A DNA stretch of 35,584 bases from Chthonomonadales bacterium (lineage in GTDB: Bacteria > Armatimonadota > Chthonomonadetes > Chthonomonadales > CAJBBX01), in contig DAIDHP010000041.1 of the NCBI GenBank assembly GCA_027459625.1, positions 1 to 35,584 of the forward strand, read 5' to 3'. Numbering within the stretch: the stretch's first letter is position 1; each line of letters opens with the position of its first letter. The notes under the pieces were generated by a model, which was not told the origin of the DNA, did no database searches, and saw only the letters and a list, made by a program, of their open reading frames with translations. Below, piece after piece: positions 4,914 through 33,872 of the stretch. Position numbers and translations under genes: made by a program.

Positions 4914-5504
4914 GATAAGTCTCCTTCCGCAAATAGCAGGAACCAAAGATCGAATATCTTTTCCTGTCTTCGTTCTCCCGTGTCCCCTCATTTGATATAT
5001 GCAGAGAAGTATCGGTTCGTGCAATCCCGCCGACAAAATCCCTGAGAATGAAAGAAAAGCCTGCCTCCGATTTTTTCATAGGTATCACACGGATATCGCA
5101 GCGAAAGAAAATTGCACAAACCGTTCGCTTATTGCATTTGAATATTAAGTCGAGGAGGCTTTGCTCGACACGGAACGCAATGGCGCGGTGATGCATAAGG
5201 ATCGTCATCCTTGAAATCCAACGAAGGACGATGGACGGGCTATTGTGGATGGCGGGGATAGAACTGATTTGTATTTCGGGTAAATTGCAAAATTCGAAGA
5301 TGGGCTAAGATCGCTCGTGTCACGATAGCCGTAACACCTGAACAGCGAATTTTACAATTACCCGACCAGTTTTCTCATATTTTCCTAAATGTTTAGCGAT
5401 AAGGATGTAGCATTCGCACACTGAAGCTTACCGCCATGAACGGAGTTCGACAAACACTAGGAGTTAATGTACGCCTTAACGCTTAAACGATTGGGAGAGA
5501 AACC
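4914..5504. other. Divergent intergenic region between epimerase and sugar transferase
   Basis: 591 nt without a supported gene. It must hold promoters for both transcription units, but no strong sigma-70 site stands out by eye. It contains one copy of the dispersed TAATTGCAAAATTC inverted-arm element (5277-5364). An open frame on the minus strand (to 5208) is arginine/glycine-rich read-through of the epimerase 5' region and is not accepted as a gene. Confidence 0.6.
5277..5364. repeat. TAATTGCAAAATTC inverted-arm element, copy A
   Basis: Left arm 5277-5296 (CGGGTAAATTGCAAAATTCG) and right arm 5346-5364 (CGAATTTTACAATTACCCG) are reverse complements apart from one bulge and one mismatch (about 18 pairs). 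The ~49-nt interior includes TCGTG-T-CACGA and GGCTA/TAGCC, so it could fold further. One of six copies in the window; lies 141 nt upstream of the sugar transferase start. Confidence 0.85.
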
Positions 5505-6616: not shown

Positions 6617-8824
6617 ATGGATCAGTACGATTACGCTTTGCCGCAAAAAGACGTCACCATCAAGGACATTCTGGTTATCACCTGGCGCTATAAATTCCTG
6701 ATCATTCTTATGATGGCGTCGTGCGTTTATTTGTCTTATTACGCCACAAAACACATGAAACCGAAATGGCAGGCGAATGCGCAGATGGTGGTCATTCAGA
6801 GAGGGGGGAATTCGGGCAATAACACCTTCGACCCCTCCAATCCCTCCTCCCCTCTCATAGAGACACCGGACACACAGGTCACCATGATGGAGAGCGACGG
6901 GATGGCCATACGCACCATCAACCTCCTGAAAAACGAAGCGCTCGCCGCCGGCGAACCCACAAGCTCCGTCACTTACACCGTGCCTTCGATCGAAAGCGCC
7001 TTGACGGTGGACAACCCAAGGGGAACGAACATTCTGAACGTGAGCATGATAGCCAACAACCCTGACGAGGCGGCGAAACTGGCAAACACCGTGTGCGATG
7101 CGATGGTGGCGTGGAAAACGGAGATCGCTCAATCCAGCATTCAAACCTATATCTCCACTCTGAAAAGCCGAACCGATCAGGCGAAGAAGGCGATGGACGC
7201 GGTGGAGCAAAAGGAGCTGCAGTTTAAAAACACGCATCATCTTGTGGATCTCTCCTCCCAGACGGAGGCGGAGTTAAAACGATTCCAAACGCAGCAGCAA
7301 AACGTGGATCAACTGCAGCAGCAGGTGGCTGCGCAGCAAGCTCTCGCCGATTCCCAGGAGCAGCAACTGAAATCGATCGACGCCTCCATTATGACCGGCA
7401 CAGGCATCCGGGACGATACTTTGGTGGCGGCGTTGCAAACCAAGCTGAACGATCTGGAGATGCAGAGGGTGCAGGCGGCTCAGAAATACACGGAGGCTTA
7501 TCCCGGCATTCTGCCCGATTTGGATCAGCAGATTGCGGACGTGAAAACCCGTCTGCACGACGCGATCCAAAACACACTGAACAACCAGCAGGGCTCCCTG
7601 CAAACCCAGGGAGCCCTGCTGGATAACTACAACAACGCCGAAACCACCCTGATATCGCTTCAAGCGCAGCTAAACGCCGCAGTTCATCAAAAGGCTCTCT
7701 TTAAAAAAGCCACCATGCATATTCCGGCTATCACCATGGATTACGCGCAACTCTCCCAGGCTTCCGACCTGGCAAAGACGCAATACGCTGCGGCGAAGGG
7801 GCTGCTGGATTCCGCGCGCTTCGATCTGGGCAAGGTGGGCCCGAACGTGCAGGTCATGCAGCAGGCGGTTCCATCCCTCACTCCGGTCAGCCCCAATGTG
7901 AAAAAGATCATGATGATAGGCACCTTGGTGGGGATATTCCTCTGCTTCGGTCTTATACTCATCCTGGAGCAGAGCGACAAAAGACTGCGCAGCATCGATG
8001 ACGTGCTGGGAATGCTGAACGGACCTGTGGTTGGAACGATGCCGAAACTCAAAGGTAGCCAGATCAGGAGAATCTCCAAGGGGGATATCCCGCCGGAGGT
8101 CACCGAATCCTGCAGCCTTACCCGTGCGCATCTCGGATTGGCTCTCCGGAAACATCATGGGCCGGACTCCCTCGAAAACAGGGTGTTCCTCTTCACAAGC
8201 GCGATGAAGGGGGAGGGCAAATCCATGATCGCCTTCTCGATGGCGCAGTCCTTCGCTAGATCGGGCAAAACCGTGATACTGGTGGACGCCGACATCCGCC
8301 GGCCCTCACAGAACAAACTTTTCAACACCGAGGAGCCGATCGGTTTGGCAAACGTGATCGAAGGGGATGTCACCCTGGATCAGGCGTTGGTGTCCACGGA
8401 TATCCCGCAGCTTACCGTGCTGCACAGCGGATCATCCCAGAGAAACCCCTCCGAGTTGCTCTCTCAGAAGAAGATGGGGGAGATAATCGTCGCATTGCGA
8501 AAAGAGGCGGAGATCGTCATTATCGATTCCCCGGCATGCTCCGTGGTCGCGGACGCTTTGTTCCTCGCGCCTCTCACCGATACCATCTTCTATATCATTG
8601 GAATGGGAACCATCCACGAGGATATCCTGAAGGATATCGCAGCGGAGCTGGGGGCGACCACAGCCTCCATGTTCTTTTTCGTCAACAGGGCGGCTGGACG
8701 GGTGCACACGGGATACGGTTCGAGTTACTATTACTACTATAGCGGCATCGGTTCGAATCGCAATGGGAAACAAGGGATTACCGCCCTGCCCGCGCCGCAG
8801 GAGAATGAGGAGAGCGCCAAATGA
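6617..8824 (+). CDS. Wzz-type chain-length protein fused to BY-kinase (tyrosine autokinase)
   Basis: Inner-membrane polysaccharide co-polymerase with a cytoplasmic bacterial tyrosine kinase (Wzc-like), controlling chain length and export with the downstream Wza-like protein. About 735 residues. Wzz domain: first membrane segment near residues 30-50, a long periplasmic coiled coil rich in Gln and Lys (~170-360), then a second membrane segment after 'VSPNVKKIMMIG'. Kinase: Walker A AMKGEGKS (~528-536), Walker A' VILVDADIRRP (~553) and Walker B-like EIVIIDSP. The C-terminal autophosphorylation cluster is GYGSSYYYYYSG, with five consecutive tyrosines. ATG at 6617 is preferred (GAGGAA nine bases upstream); an in-frame ATG at 6563 is possible. 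It overlaps the next gene by ATGA, indicating translational coupling. Confidence 0.93.
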   Translation: MDQYDYALPQKDVTIKDILVITWRYKFLIILMMASCVYLSYYATKHMKPKWQANAQMVVIQRGGNSGNNTFDPSNPSSPLIETPDTQVTMMESDGMAIRTINLLKNEALAAGEPTSSVTYTVPSIESALTVDNPRGTNILNVSMIANNPDEAAKLANTVCDAMVAWKTEIAQSSIQTYISTLKSRTDQAKKAMDAVEQKELQFKNTHHLVDLSSQTEAELKRFQTQQQNVDQLQQQVAAQQALADSQEQQLKSIDASIMTGTGIRDDTLVAALQTKLNDLEMQRVQAAQKYTEAYPGILPDLDQQIADVKTRLHDAIQNTLNNQQGSLQTQGALLDNYNNAETTLISLQAQLNAAVHQKALFKKATMHIPAITMDYAQLSQASDLAKTQYAAAKGLLDSARFDLGKVGPNVQVMQQAVPSLTPVSPNVKKIMMIGTLVGIFLCFGLILILEQSDKRLRSIDDVLGMLNGPVVGTMPKLKGSQIRRISKGDIPPEVTESCSLTRAHLGLALRKHHGPDSLENRVFLFTSAMKGEGKSMIAFSMAQSFARSGKTVILVDADIRRPSQNKLFNTEEPIGLANVIEGDVTLDQALVSTDIPQLTVLHSGSSQRNPSELLSQKKMGEIIVALRKEAEIVIIDSPACSVVADALFLAPLTDTIFYIIGMGTIHEDILKDIAAELGATTASMFFFVNRAAGRVHTGYGSSYYYYYSGIGSNRNGKQGITALPAPQENEESAK

Positions 8825-10044
8825 AATCCATCCTCTTAATACAGCGTCATTTTGCTCGGATTGTCTTGGCGATTACGCTGATCGCTTTTTTCACCGTCCG
8901 CACCGGAGCCGAACCGCTCGCATCGCAGGCCGCTCCGCTCTCCCTGGATGATCAAACGGGGCCCTATCTGCTCGCCTCGGACGACGTGATCAATATCACC
9001 GTGGTGAATTTCCCCAATCTTTCGGAGACGATTGTGGTGCCGCCGGACGGTAAAATCAGCGTGCCGCTTTTGAAACCCATCGACGTAACGGGTAAAACCA
9101 CATCCGAGGTTCAGGCTATCCTCACACAGGAATGGAGAAAATACGTTATCAATCCATCGGTCACCGTCTCTCTTTCCCAAAAACGCAAGGAGAATATCCT
9201 CGTGTACGGCTACGTGATGACACCCGGCACGGGGGATTTCCGACCGGGAATGCGCGTTCTCGAGGCGATCGCCCAGCAAGGGGGGCCGCTCCCGCAGGCG
9301 GATATGAGCAGGGTCACCATTACGCACCGCAACGGGACGAAACAGACCGTGGACCTGAGCAACCCCGCCATGAAAGGGGGCACTCCGGCGGATGCGCCGC
9401 TCCAAAACGGGGATGTGATCTACATCCCCATAAGCAGGGCGCAGATCACCGTGGTGGGGGAAGTGAACAACCCTGGCAGTTTCGATTACAAGGATGATAT
9501 GAATGTTCTTCAAGCTCTGACGGACGCGGGAGGGGTGAAGGAGAGCGCGGATCTCGCCACGGCGACCCTGCAGCACGATGGGGTGGAAGTTCCGCTGAAC
9601 TTGGACGCCCTTCTCAGACATGGCGATTTCTCCTGGAACAAGAAGCTCTCGGCGGGAGACAAGATCATGGTGCCGGAAATTAAAAACCGAGTGTATGTGT
9701 TCGGCGCGATCGCTCGGCCGGGTTATTATATCTTCAAGCCGGATGACAGGGTGCTGGACGCGTTGAACGGATGCGGCGGCCCGGTGCGCAATGCCGCGAT
9801 GAATAAAATCAACCTTATTCGCATTGATCGCGCCAAGGGTATCGCGAAAGTCACCGTGGTCGACATAGATAAATTCCTGAAAAAGGGCGATATCACCGAG
9901 AACGTTGCGTTGAAACCCGGGGATGTGCTCTATATCCCGGATAAGAAGCACGCATTCGGAATCCAGGACCTCTTCGGATTGCTATCCGGAGTCAATATCA
10001 TCGGGTCCACCTATCGCATCATCACAGGGAACCCTTATTATTGA
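8821..10044 (+). CDS. Polysaccharide export protein with SLBB domains (Wza-like)
   Basis: Periplasmic/outer-membrane export channel protein, 407 residues. N-terminal signal peptide (residues ~1-30, ending near 'VRTGAEP'); no lipobox cysteine is visible, unlike E. coli Wza. Poly_export domain at ~47-130: 'YLLASDDVINITVVNFPNLSE' and 'VVPPDGKISVPLL'. Three SLBB-type repeats follow, each with a 'V.VyG.V..PG.f' strand: ILVYGYVMTPGTG, ITVVGEVNNPGSF and VYVFGAIARPGYY, each followed by 'vLdAl..aGG'. Start ATG overlaps the BY-kinase stop, so kinase and export protein are co-translated, as in Wza-Wzc systems. An inverted-arm element begins eight bases after its stop. Confidence 0.93.
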   Translation: MKSILLIQRHFARIVLAITLIAFFTVRTGAEPLASQAAPLSLDDQTGPYLLASDDVINITVVNFPNLSETIVVPPDGKISVPLLKPIDVTGKTTSEVQAILTQEWRKYVINPSVTVSLSQKRKENILVYGYVMTPGTGDFRPGMRVLEAIAQQGGPLPQADMSRVTITHRNGTKQTVDLSNPAMKGGTPADAPLQNGDVIYIPISRAQITVVGEVNNPGSFDYKDDMNVLQALTDAGGVKESADLATATLQHDGVEVPLNLDALLRHGDFSWNKKLSAGDKIMVPEIKNRVYVFGAIARPGYYIFKPDDRVLDALNGCGGPVRNAAMNKINLIRIDRAKGIAKVTVVDIDKFLKKGDITENVALKPGDVLYIPDKKHAFGIQDLFGLLSGVNIIGSTYRIITGNPYY

Positions 10045-10051
10045 TAGGCAT

Positions 10052-10135
10052 GGCAATTGCGAAGTTCAGGAAATGAGCAACATTTCACTCATCGTTCGCT
10101 TGCGCGGATCTCCGATAATGAATTTTGCAATTGCC
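10052..10135. repeat. TAATTGCAAAATTC inverted-arm element, copy B
   Basis: Left arm 10052-10068 and right arm 10119-10135 pair along all 17 positions if two G-U pairs are allowed; both departures from perfect symmetry are of the G-U type, which fits pairing as RNA of the plus strand. Interior ~50 nt with ATGAG/CTCAT. It starts 8 nt after the export-protein stop. Confidence 0.85.
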
Positions 10136-10309
10136 TGCATTAACGTAAAAACCGGCTCATAACGCCGCATCGTTACGGGGGAGCCCCCTTTGAGGTTCGT
10201 GCGTTTGAGGCATATGGTTCAGGGATGTTACTTTCCCTATGAACAATATTGCACAGTTGCAATGATCACGGTATCTCATTTAAAAGCACTAAAGCACAAG
10301 GCGAATTTC

Positions 10310-15828: not shown

Positions 15829-16143
15829 CGCGGCGAATAAATTCGCGCCGGTTGATTTCCGATATGAATGAATCTAACACCACGTTTACGCACGGCGAAT
15901 AAATTCGCGCCTGACAAATACGCGAAATCCACCTCCGTGGATTTCATCAACGCACACCGCCACAACCCGCGTTATGCACGGCGAATAAATTCGCGATTAA
16001 CAAATACGCAAAATCCACATCCGTGGATTAACATCAACGCACACCGCCACAACCCGCATTAAGCACGGCGAATAAATTCGCGATTAACAAATACGCAAAA
16101 TCCACCTCCGTGGATTTCATCAACGCACACCGCCACAACCCGC
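15829..16143. repeat. Tandem array of ~87-bp palindromic units
   Basis: Three tandem units begin with CACGGCGAATAAATTCGCG at 15891, 15977 and 16064 (unit lengths 86, 87 and ~80), preceded by a partial copy from 15829. Each unit holds GCGAAT-AA-ATTCGC (stem with a 2-nt gap) and AAATCCAC-CTCC-GTGGATTT, a perfect 8-bp hairpin in units 1 and 3; unit 2 has CATCC and loses the last pairs. All end in a CACCGCCACAACCCGC phrase. There are no unique spacers of CRISPR size. Open frames on both strands across the array repeat with it and are not genes. Confidence 0.85.
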
Positions 16144-16256
16144 GAAGGCGGGTTTCGTGTTTTCGGCAGATGCGGTTTGAACCGCCGGTGTTGTCATGAC
16201 AGGTTCGTTGTTTGAATACGCCATCATCCAAGTACCGAGTGCGCGGTTTCAACCGC
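16144..16256. repeat. Cluster of short near-perfect palindromes
   Basis: Continuing from the array: AACCCGC-GAAG-GCGGGTT at 16137-16154, GCGGTT-TG-AACCGC at 16172-16185, the perfect palindrome TGTCATGACA at 16192-16201 and GCGGTT-TC-AACCGC at 16243-16256. The last runs into the 3' end of the mug-like gene. The 6-bp arms with a 2-bp centre repeat the design of the GCGAAT-AA-ATTCGC sites in the array. Confidence 0.7.
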
Positions 16257-19683: not shown

Positions 19684-21159
19684 ATGGCCGCAAAAAAACT
19701 GAAGATACTTATAGTCGCCGCAGAGGTGGCCCCCTTCGCCAAAGTTGGCGGATTGGCTGATGTCGCCGGAGCGCTGCCGAAAGCCTTGCGAGCAATGGGG
19801 CATGATGTCCGCGTCGCCATGCCGTGTTATAAGATGATCGAGGACAATCCGGCATATGATGTCAAGGATGTTCCGCTTGAGTTCACTTTTCAGTTGAACA
19901 ACGAACGCACCGAGCAGGCATACGTTAGACAGACACTGATCGGAGATGATATCCCCGTATATCTCGTGGCGCACAAAACCTTCTTCAAAGAGGCGACGGA
20001 GAGCAAAAAAGTCTATTCCCTGCAACCGGAACCCTATGTCTTTTTCGATCGCGCGGTGATGGAGTTCGTCAGTCGACTTACGCCCCAATGGATTCCGGAC
20101 ATCGTGCATTGCAACGACTGGCATACGGGACTTCTTCCGGTCTATCTGAGTTTGGAGAGCGACAAAAACCCGATATGGGCGAATACGGCTCGCATATTCA
20201 CCATCCACAATCTGGCGTATCAAGGGGAGTTCGACTGGCAAATCCTCTCTTACGCAGGTCTTCCGGAGAGCCTGTTCACCTATGACAAGCTGGAATTTTA
20301 CGGGCAGGTGAGTTTCATGAAAGGCGGATTGATTTTCGCGCACCTTGTGAATACCGTAAGCCAGACATATTCCAAGGAGATACAGACTCCGGAGTATGGT
20401 TGCAGATTGGAGGGATTGCTTCAATATCTGGCTCAACAGGATAAAATATCCGGAATTGTCAACGGTATTGATTACTCTGAGTACGATCCCGCCACCGATC
20501 CCCGCATTCCCGCTAACTTCAGCGCGGAATCGCCTGCGGGAAAAAGCAAGTGCCGAACCGCTTTGCAAAAGGAGTGCGGGTTGCCTTTGAGCAAAACCTC
20601 CGCAGTCATCGGAATCGTATCCCGTTTGGCCGATCAAAAGGGGTTCGATCTGATCAGTCACATCGCGGAGAAGATGATGAACCTCCCATTGCAGCTGGTC
20701 ATCCTCGGCTCCGGCGATCCTGTTTACGAAACCTTCTTCCGCGACTTGGAAAAACGATTCCCCAAAAAGATGAAAGCGTATATCGGTTTCGACGCCGACT
20801 TGGCGCAACGGATATACTCAGGAAGCGATATGTTCCTGATGCCGTCCCGCTTTGAACCCTGTGGATTGGGGCAGCTAATGAGCTTGCGTTACGGCACGAT
20901 ACCCATCGTTCGCGCCACGGGCGGGTTGGCGGATACGATCATGCCGTTCGACCTCAAAACGCATCGTGGAAACGGCTTCTCATTCGTGGATTACAAGGCG
21001 GATACCCTTTTGGAAACCATCGAACTTGCTCTCCGAACTTTCGCGGACAAGGAACAGTGGCAACTGCTGGCGCAAAACGCGATGAATAGCAATTTCTCAT
21101 GGGATAATTCCGCGAGGAAATACGTGGAGTTGTATAAAAACGCCCTGAAACGGATATAA
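19684..21159 (+). CDS. glgA: Glycogen synthase (ADP-glucose type)
   Basis: GT5 glycosyltransferase that extends alpha-1,4-glucan from ADP-glucose; 491 residues, normal for the family. N-terminal 'AAEVAPFAKVGGLADVAGALPKAL' with the K-V-G-G-L ADP-glucose motif (~20-24), 'DIVHCNDWHTGLLP' (~139-152), 'FTIHNLAYQGEF', 'SYAGLPESLFT', and the C-terminal 'SRLADQKGFDL' and SRFEPCGLGQLMSLRYGTIP with the catalytic E-P-C-G-L-G-Q. 'ATGGLADT' is the second glycine loop. AGAGGAG precedes the ATG at 19684, 36 nt after flhG, so co-transcription with it is likely. No other glycogen gene is in the window. Confidence 0.96.
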   Translation: MAAKKLKILIVAAEVAPFAKVGGLADVAGALPKALRAMGHDVRVAMPCYKMIEDNPAYDVKDVPLEFTFQLNNERTEQAYVRQTLIGDDIPVYLVAHKTFFKEATESKKVYSLQPEPYVFFDRAVMEFVSRLTPQWIPDIVHCNDWHTGLLPVYLSLESDKNPIWANTARIFTIHNLAYQGEFDWQILSYAGLPESLFTYDKLEFYGQVSFMKGGLIFAHLVNTVSQTYSKEIQTPEYGCRLEGLLQYLAQQDKISGIVNGIDYSEYDPATDPRIPANFSAESPAGKSKCRTALQKECGLPLSKTSAVIGIVSRLADQKGFDLISHIAEKMMNLPLQLVILGSGDPVYETFFRDLEKRFPKKMKAYIGFDADLAQRIYSGSDMFLMPSRFEPCGLGQLMSLRYGTIPIVRATGGLADTIMPFDLKTHRGNGFSFVDYKADTLLETIELALRTFADKEQWQLLAQNAMNSNFSWDNSARKYVELYKNALKRI

Positions 21160-21332: not shown

Positions 21333-21359
21333 ATATTTGCGGGTTGTTATAATCAAGCA

Positions 21360-21444
21360 GGATAATTGCAATATTCGCATTTCCTAGGTTTCACCATGGG
21401 GAATCGAGCGGAATTAGCCACATTATCCGAATTTTGCAATTACC
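21360..21444. repeat. TAATTGCAAAATTC inverted-arm element, copy C
   Basis: Left arm 21360-21377 (GGATAATTGCAATATTCG) and right arm 21428-21444 (CGAATTTTGCAATTACC) pair at about 16 positions with one bulge and one mismatch; interior 50 nt. Its right end is only 18 nt before the small membrane-protein ATG. Confidence 0.8.
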
Positions 21445-21462
21445 ACAAGTGAAAAATGCGCG

Positions 21463-21753: not shown

Positions 21754-21880
21754 GAGATATCAAGGATAATTCATCTCCCTCCGCGAACCCGTTCAGCACA
21801 CCGAAATAGAATGGCGGATGGCGCGAATAGCATGTAATAATCCGCGCCACACTGCCAAAATAGAGTCTGTTAACCATGGA

Positions 21881-21963
21881 GGAAATTGCAAAATTCTGCA
21901 AGGAAGGCGATCATAGAGCTTTTGACGCCATATGAAATGGCTGAATCGTGATTTTTGCAATCG
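21881..21963. repeat. TAATTGCAAAATTC inverted-arm element, copy D (degenerate)
   Basis: Left arm from 21881 (GGAAATTGCAAAATTC) and right arm ending about 21963 (GATTTTTGCAATCGG). Only the ATTGCAAAAT core pairs well (about 10-11 bp); outer positions have drifted. Interior has GGCG/CGCC. Same overall size as the other copies. Confidence 0.6.
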
Positions 21964-21979
21964 GATGCATAAGAAAAAA

Positions 21980-28268: not shown

Positions 28269-28384
28269 ACATCACATCCACATGGAGGGGAACCGCATCC
28301 CCTCCATGCCTTTCTTCCACACCCTCCAGGGAATGAACCCCGTCACCCTGTCTCCCCATCCGGTATAATAATATGATACTATCG

Positions 28385-28467
28385 GGGATTGCAAACTTAG
28401 CGTTTCATACAACTCATCAAGCATTGGAAATGCGTCGCAACCCTCGTTGTCCGAATTATGCAATCAC
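28385..28467. repeat. TAATTGCAAAATTC inverted-arm element, copy E (degenerate)
   Basis: Left arm GGGATTGCAAACTTAG from 28385 and right arm CGAATTATGCAATCAC (28452-28467). About 11-12 positions pair, with the GATTGCA core best. Interior of ~50 nt includes GCATT-GG-AAATGC. It ends 26 nt before the miaB start. Confidence 0.6.
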
Positions 28468-28493
28468 ACCGTGAATTTTTTTTGGAAAGACCT

Positions 28494-33784: not shown

Positions 33785-33872
33785 CAGGTAATTGCAAAAT
33801 CCAACAAAATGCGGTCGTAAACTTACATTTCAAATGTAAAAAACGCCTGTAACCGATTTTTGCAATTACCTG
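33785..33872. repeat. TAATTGCAAAATTC inverted-arm element, copy F (best preserved)
   Basis: Left arm 33785-33801 (CAGGTAATTGCAAAATC) and right arm 33855-33872 (GATTTTTGCAATTACCTG) pair at 17 positions with a single bulged base. The interior (53 nt) contains a second, nested perfect hairpin TTACATTT-C-AAATGTAA. It starts 28 nt after the phosphoesterase stop. Confidence 0.88.

Follow-up and report, generated by a model that had tools for sequence, protein, structure and literature searches.

The dispersed elements in the 35,584-nt stretch of Chthonomonadales DNA analysed here (the window; contig DAIDHP010000041.1) are, with a probability of about 95%, copies of a MITE. This non-autonomous DNA transposon of 89 bp is presumably moved in trans by the transposase of an IS1182-family insertion sequence with the same ends. 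The original prediction, made from the window alone, had regarded their uniform size and seemingly unrelated interiors as odd for a simple MITE; this view is overturned by homologous interiors, 4-bp target-site duplications, empty sites and an IS1182-type relative with the same ends. Its sequence, host and copy number make the family new, while its kind is already known.

The MITE accounts for a conspicuous repeat that makes up ~0.5% of the genome's DNA. The analysis names the transposase family behind this repeat, and a profile is supplied for annotation and masking. Old copies of a single MITE can pass for unrelated sequences with matching arms; the wider surprise of the result is low.

Copies in the Window

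All six predicted copies were recovered as profile matches within ~4 bp of the expected places. Their inverted arms and intergenic siting were confirmed, as was their length, given before as 83-88 bp and measured here as 87-89 bp. The old copy at 5278-5364 (plus strand; nhmmer score of 53.2 bits; interior z of 7.5) has its TIRs at ~5278-5296 and 5346-5364. Directly past the stop of a polysaccharide-export gene (8821-10044) lies an old, diverged copy at 10050-10137 (plus strand; 36.9 bits; interior z of 4.4), and the copy at 21359-21446 (minus strand; 54.5 bits; interior z of 6.7) is placed after glgA (19684-21159). Two copies are degenerate: the one at 21879-21967 (plus strand; 44.9 bits; interior z of 5.2), placed before a sigma-factor gene (22086), at its right end, and the one at 28382-28470 (minus strand; 45.1 bits; interior z of 4.5), placed before miaB. 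The copy at 33785-33872 (plus strand; 32.1 bits; interior z of 4.0) combines well-preserved arms with a diverged interior.

The earlier view that the interiors are unrelated did not hold: all six can be aligned, in a single orientation, to the same conserved interior. Against a profile built exclusively from copies outside the window, the interiors reached z values of 4.0-7.5 on one strand only, and none of the 500 shuffles made per interior attained the respective score. Because all six beat every shuffle on a single strand, we conclude that the supposedly unrelated interiors are diverged homologues, which seem unrelated because the window copies are old and diverged.

Rfam and tRNA scans of the window returned no match, and comparison with phage records gave no real match. 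At 15886-16144 of the window, three 87-bp units with 91% similarity to each other follow in tandem in intergenic DNA.

Family Size, Consensus and Spread

In the 4.55-Mb draft genome, the arm core TTGCAAAATTCG has 215 matches when up to one mismatch is allowed, compared with 21 for the reversed control pattern, and inverted arm pairs in 0.83 Mb pile up at a single spacing, with zero control pairs. Inverted pairs no commoner than expected, the outcome named beforehand as speaking against a family, were thus not what was found. That the pairs arise by chance in AT-rich DNA, a reading favoured by the AT-rich arms and by nothing more, is practically out of the question given these counts, the one favoured spacing and the homologous interiors. 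A real dispersed family outside Rfam was borne out.

Stretches amounting to 1.97 Mb of the 4.55-Mb draft genome were covered. In 1.61 Mb, an iterated profile search with a limit of E < 1e-3 revealed 85 copies, or ~50 per Mb outside the window, from which a whole-genome number of about 230 copies is extrapolated. The covariance-model search of the genome and its relatives, as proposed with the prediction, found at least 136 copies in each of the two members of the genus. The family's other genera gave zero copies, and the order as a whole contributed a few weak matches.

The consensus of the element is GGTAATTGCAAAATTCaGAAAATGAGGCTaAtATCGCTCaTtTCAcGCTtGatGAAAnacCTGAAAagCGAATTTTGCAATTACC; with the outer bases GA...TG added, the unit is 89 bp long and has the ends GAGGTAATTGCAAAATTC...GAATTTTGCAATTACCTG, corresponding to TIRs of ~18 bp (GAGGTAATTGCAAAATTC / CAGGTAATTGCAAAATTC). 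It is devoid of an ORF, and its copies form a single alignable family, with young copies elsewhere in the genome having identical or near-identical interiors on either strand.

Adjoining pairs of MITE copies were seen at locus L046 (72-271 and 1349-1543), and both pairs are also present in MAS4.bin79 (JAJZOL01), the uncultured-bacterium MAG used as comparison genome of the same genus. A ~41-bp element at L088:1588-1628, consisting of two diverged TIRs with scarcely any interior, is perhaps a minimal deletion form.

Target Duplications and Empty Sites

The flanks of the copies carry a 4-bp direct repeat (z of 8.3). Among the 30 copies scoring above 60 bits, 18 show an exact 4-bp target duplication, with 0.2 expected, and this number falls to 1-2 per class among older, lower-scoring copies. 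Comparison of orthologous flanks between this genome and MAS4.bin79 revealed, as the prediction had suggested looking for in relatives, empty sites for high-scoring copies in both directions; the gap at most of these sites is exactly -4, and for the rest it lies between -2 and -6. Nearly all low-scoring copies are common to both genomes. Transposition spans a long period and continued after the split of the two lineages.

The exact duplications and clean empty sites also bear on a rival proposal, in which the elements are REP/BIME-type palindromes mobilised by a transposase of the Y1 (TnpA-REP) type and which the two Y1_Tnp genes of the genome would favour. Y1 transposons are not known to make a target duplication. 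Since both ends of the element additionally match a DDE-type IS, REP/BIME-type palindromes are a highly improbable explanation.

Palindromic target sites have been reported for some IS1182 members (IS1272, PMC5678879); at the MITE sites, palindromy was not in excess.

A Probable IS1182-Type Partner

Through orphan ends in the genome, two decayed insertion sequences were located that bear the MITE TIR on both sides, one of ~1.43 kb (L207, 4966-6392) and an internally deleted one of ~0.98 kb (L209, 8168-9152). A third decayed IS, of 1398 bp, is located in MAS4.bin79 (L175, 38-1435), and its ends GAGGT...ACCTG are the MITE's own asymmetric ends. Its reading frame holds a TAG stop and the frame of the copy in this genome is likewise broken; stops or frameshifts interrupt these IS copies in both genomes, and an intact transposase copy was not detected. 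A perfect 4-bp duplication was not seen at the IS copies themselves, and no convincing paired TIRs at IS scale were detected in the first 1.6 Mb and the MAS4.bin79 loci.

The IS protein matches DUF772 (E of 5e-11) as well as IS5/IS1182 NCBIfam models, the latter with scores under the curated cut-offs, and the transposase, with DUF772 plus DDE, is of the IS1182 family. The best tblastn matches, with 35-40% identity, are plasmid-borne and annotated as 'IS1182 family' and 'IS1182-like element ISUnCu17'. These named elements end in GAGCCTCTTGCAAAA with the duplication ATGA and in GAGGCTCTTGCAGAA with the duplication TGGT, and the TIR and 4-bp duplication of the MITE agree with them (ISUnCu17 and the pBHB element). 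Searches of this genome with the families DDE_Tnp_1_4 (PF13701) and DDE_Tnp_1 (PF01609) gave no match because its IS copies are decayed.

Over its left ~65 nt, the MITE consensus resembles the left end of the IS, with 0-4 of 1000 shuffles doing as well against the two long copies; the match between MITE interior and IS is modest. At the IS right end, the match to the MITE stops at the TIR. With the left part matching and the right end sharing the TIR only, the most fitting interpretation is that the MITE arose from an IS1182-family element by internal deletion. It is presumably the transposase of this IS, rather than a related one, that moves the MITE in trans; insertion of the MITE makes a 4-bp target-site duplication. 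The true partner may instead be another IS of this family that has died out or is missing from the assembly.

As a candidate partner, the IS on contig C156 of MAS4.bin79 was rejected, its ends being different (CCTTAATCCTCG). At L162:5059-6911, MAS4.bin79 has an insertion sequence whose ends are perfect over 20 bp (CCTTAATCCTCGATTAAAAA) and whose open frame of 570 aa matches DDE_Tnp_1_4.

Fate of the Copies after Insertion

For the 11 copies common to both genomes, a divergence of 12.7% was determined, compared with 12.0% for the adjoining intergenic DNA (p of 0.6) and 7.6% for their coding flank. Common copies diverging like intergenic DNA give no sign of selection keeping the stem; decay after insertion is neutral, and the long stem is simply the pair of transposase recognition ends. 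The original prediction had instead suggested that conservation acts on the long stem, perhaps together with a fixed loop length. An element of this kind, structured as RNA or DNA and under selection, such as a 3'-UTR processing or termination element, could explain the strong folds of single sequences (z of -4.8 and -6.1) and the double changes at paired sites, observed for 18 pairs compared with 11.7 in column shuffles. However, the common copies show no slowdown, and their single arm changes break 11 pairs and restore 9; RNAalifold yielded no consensus structure for the family, 15% of the arm cells are unpaired, and an Rfam match is missing. The modest excess of double changes can stem from the relatedness of the copies and from the existence of subfamilies whose TIR variants match.

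Using gene calls from a simple home-made codon model with approximate start positions, 103 of the 107 copies that could be placed were intergenic. Their orientation in gaps between tandem genes is random (35 same, 37 opposite), arguing against a strand preference, and copies are not in excess between convergent genes. Together with the homology of the interiors, these data largely refute the structured element, which we rate as very unlikely, and nothing in the tests performed here supports a general RNA role. It is very unlikely that some copies near stops or starts were co-opted to act at the transcript level, serving as an RNase III site, a terminator or a 5'-UTR hairpin and switching between the two mutually exclusive hairpins of the interior.

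Comparison with Known Elements

Among known MITEs, the ISMac2-derived IS1182-type elements of Methanosarcina acetivorans described by Kamoun et al. are 160 and 169 bp long, the 160-bp form having 4-bp direct repeats and 14 copies (PMC3852290). Like the MITE described here, they are short, ORF-less and share TIRs with an IS1182-family element, whereas the present one is 89 bp long, has ~230 copies, differs in sequence and resides in an uncultured bacterial genus. ISUnCu17 (Aeromonas caviae) and the pBHB-plasmid IS have in common with it the end motif GAG..CTTGCAAAA and the 4-bp duplication, and their transposases are 35-40% identical to that of the relative found here; unlike the MITE, they are autonomous, transposase-encoding elements of ~1.4-1.5 kb. 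ERIC, Correia, Nezha, Chunjie and further bacterial MITEs differ from it in sequence and rely on other partner transposases. They resemble it in being mostly intergenic, AT-rich, palindromic and of high copy number, with foldable transcripts (PMC10969869).

In other genera of the order, short elements with the ends GAGGTAATTGCAAAAGTC and different interiors were observed at L189, L191, L194 and L197 (~1501-1640), two of them with the 4-bp duplications ACTA and ATAG; these probably represent distinct MITEs that belong to the same IS1182 group. A near-perfect hairpin of 49 bp at L190:1501-1549 shares its ends with these elements and has inserted into the palindrome TAACACTT...AAGTGTTA.
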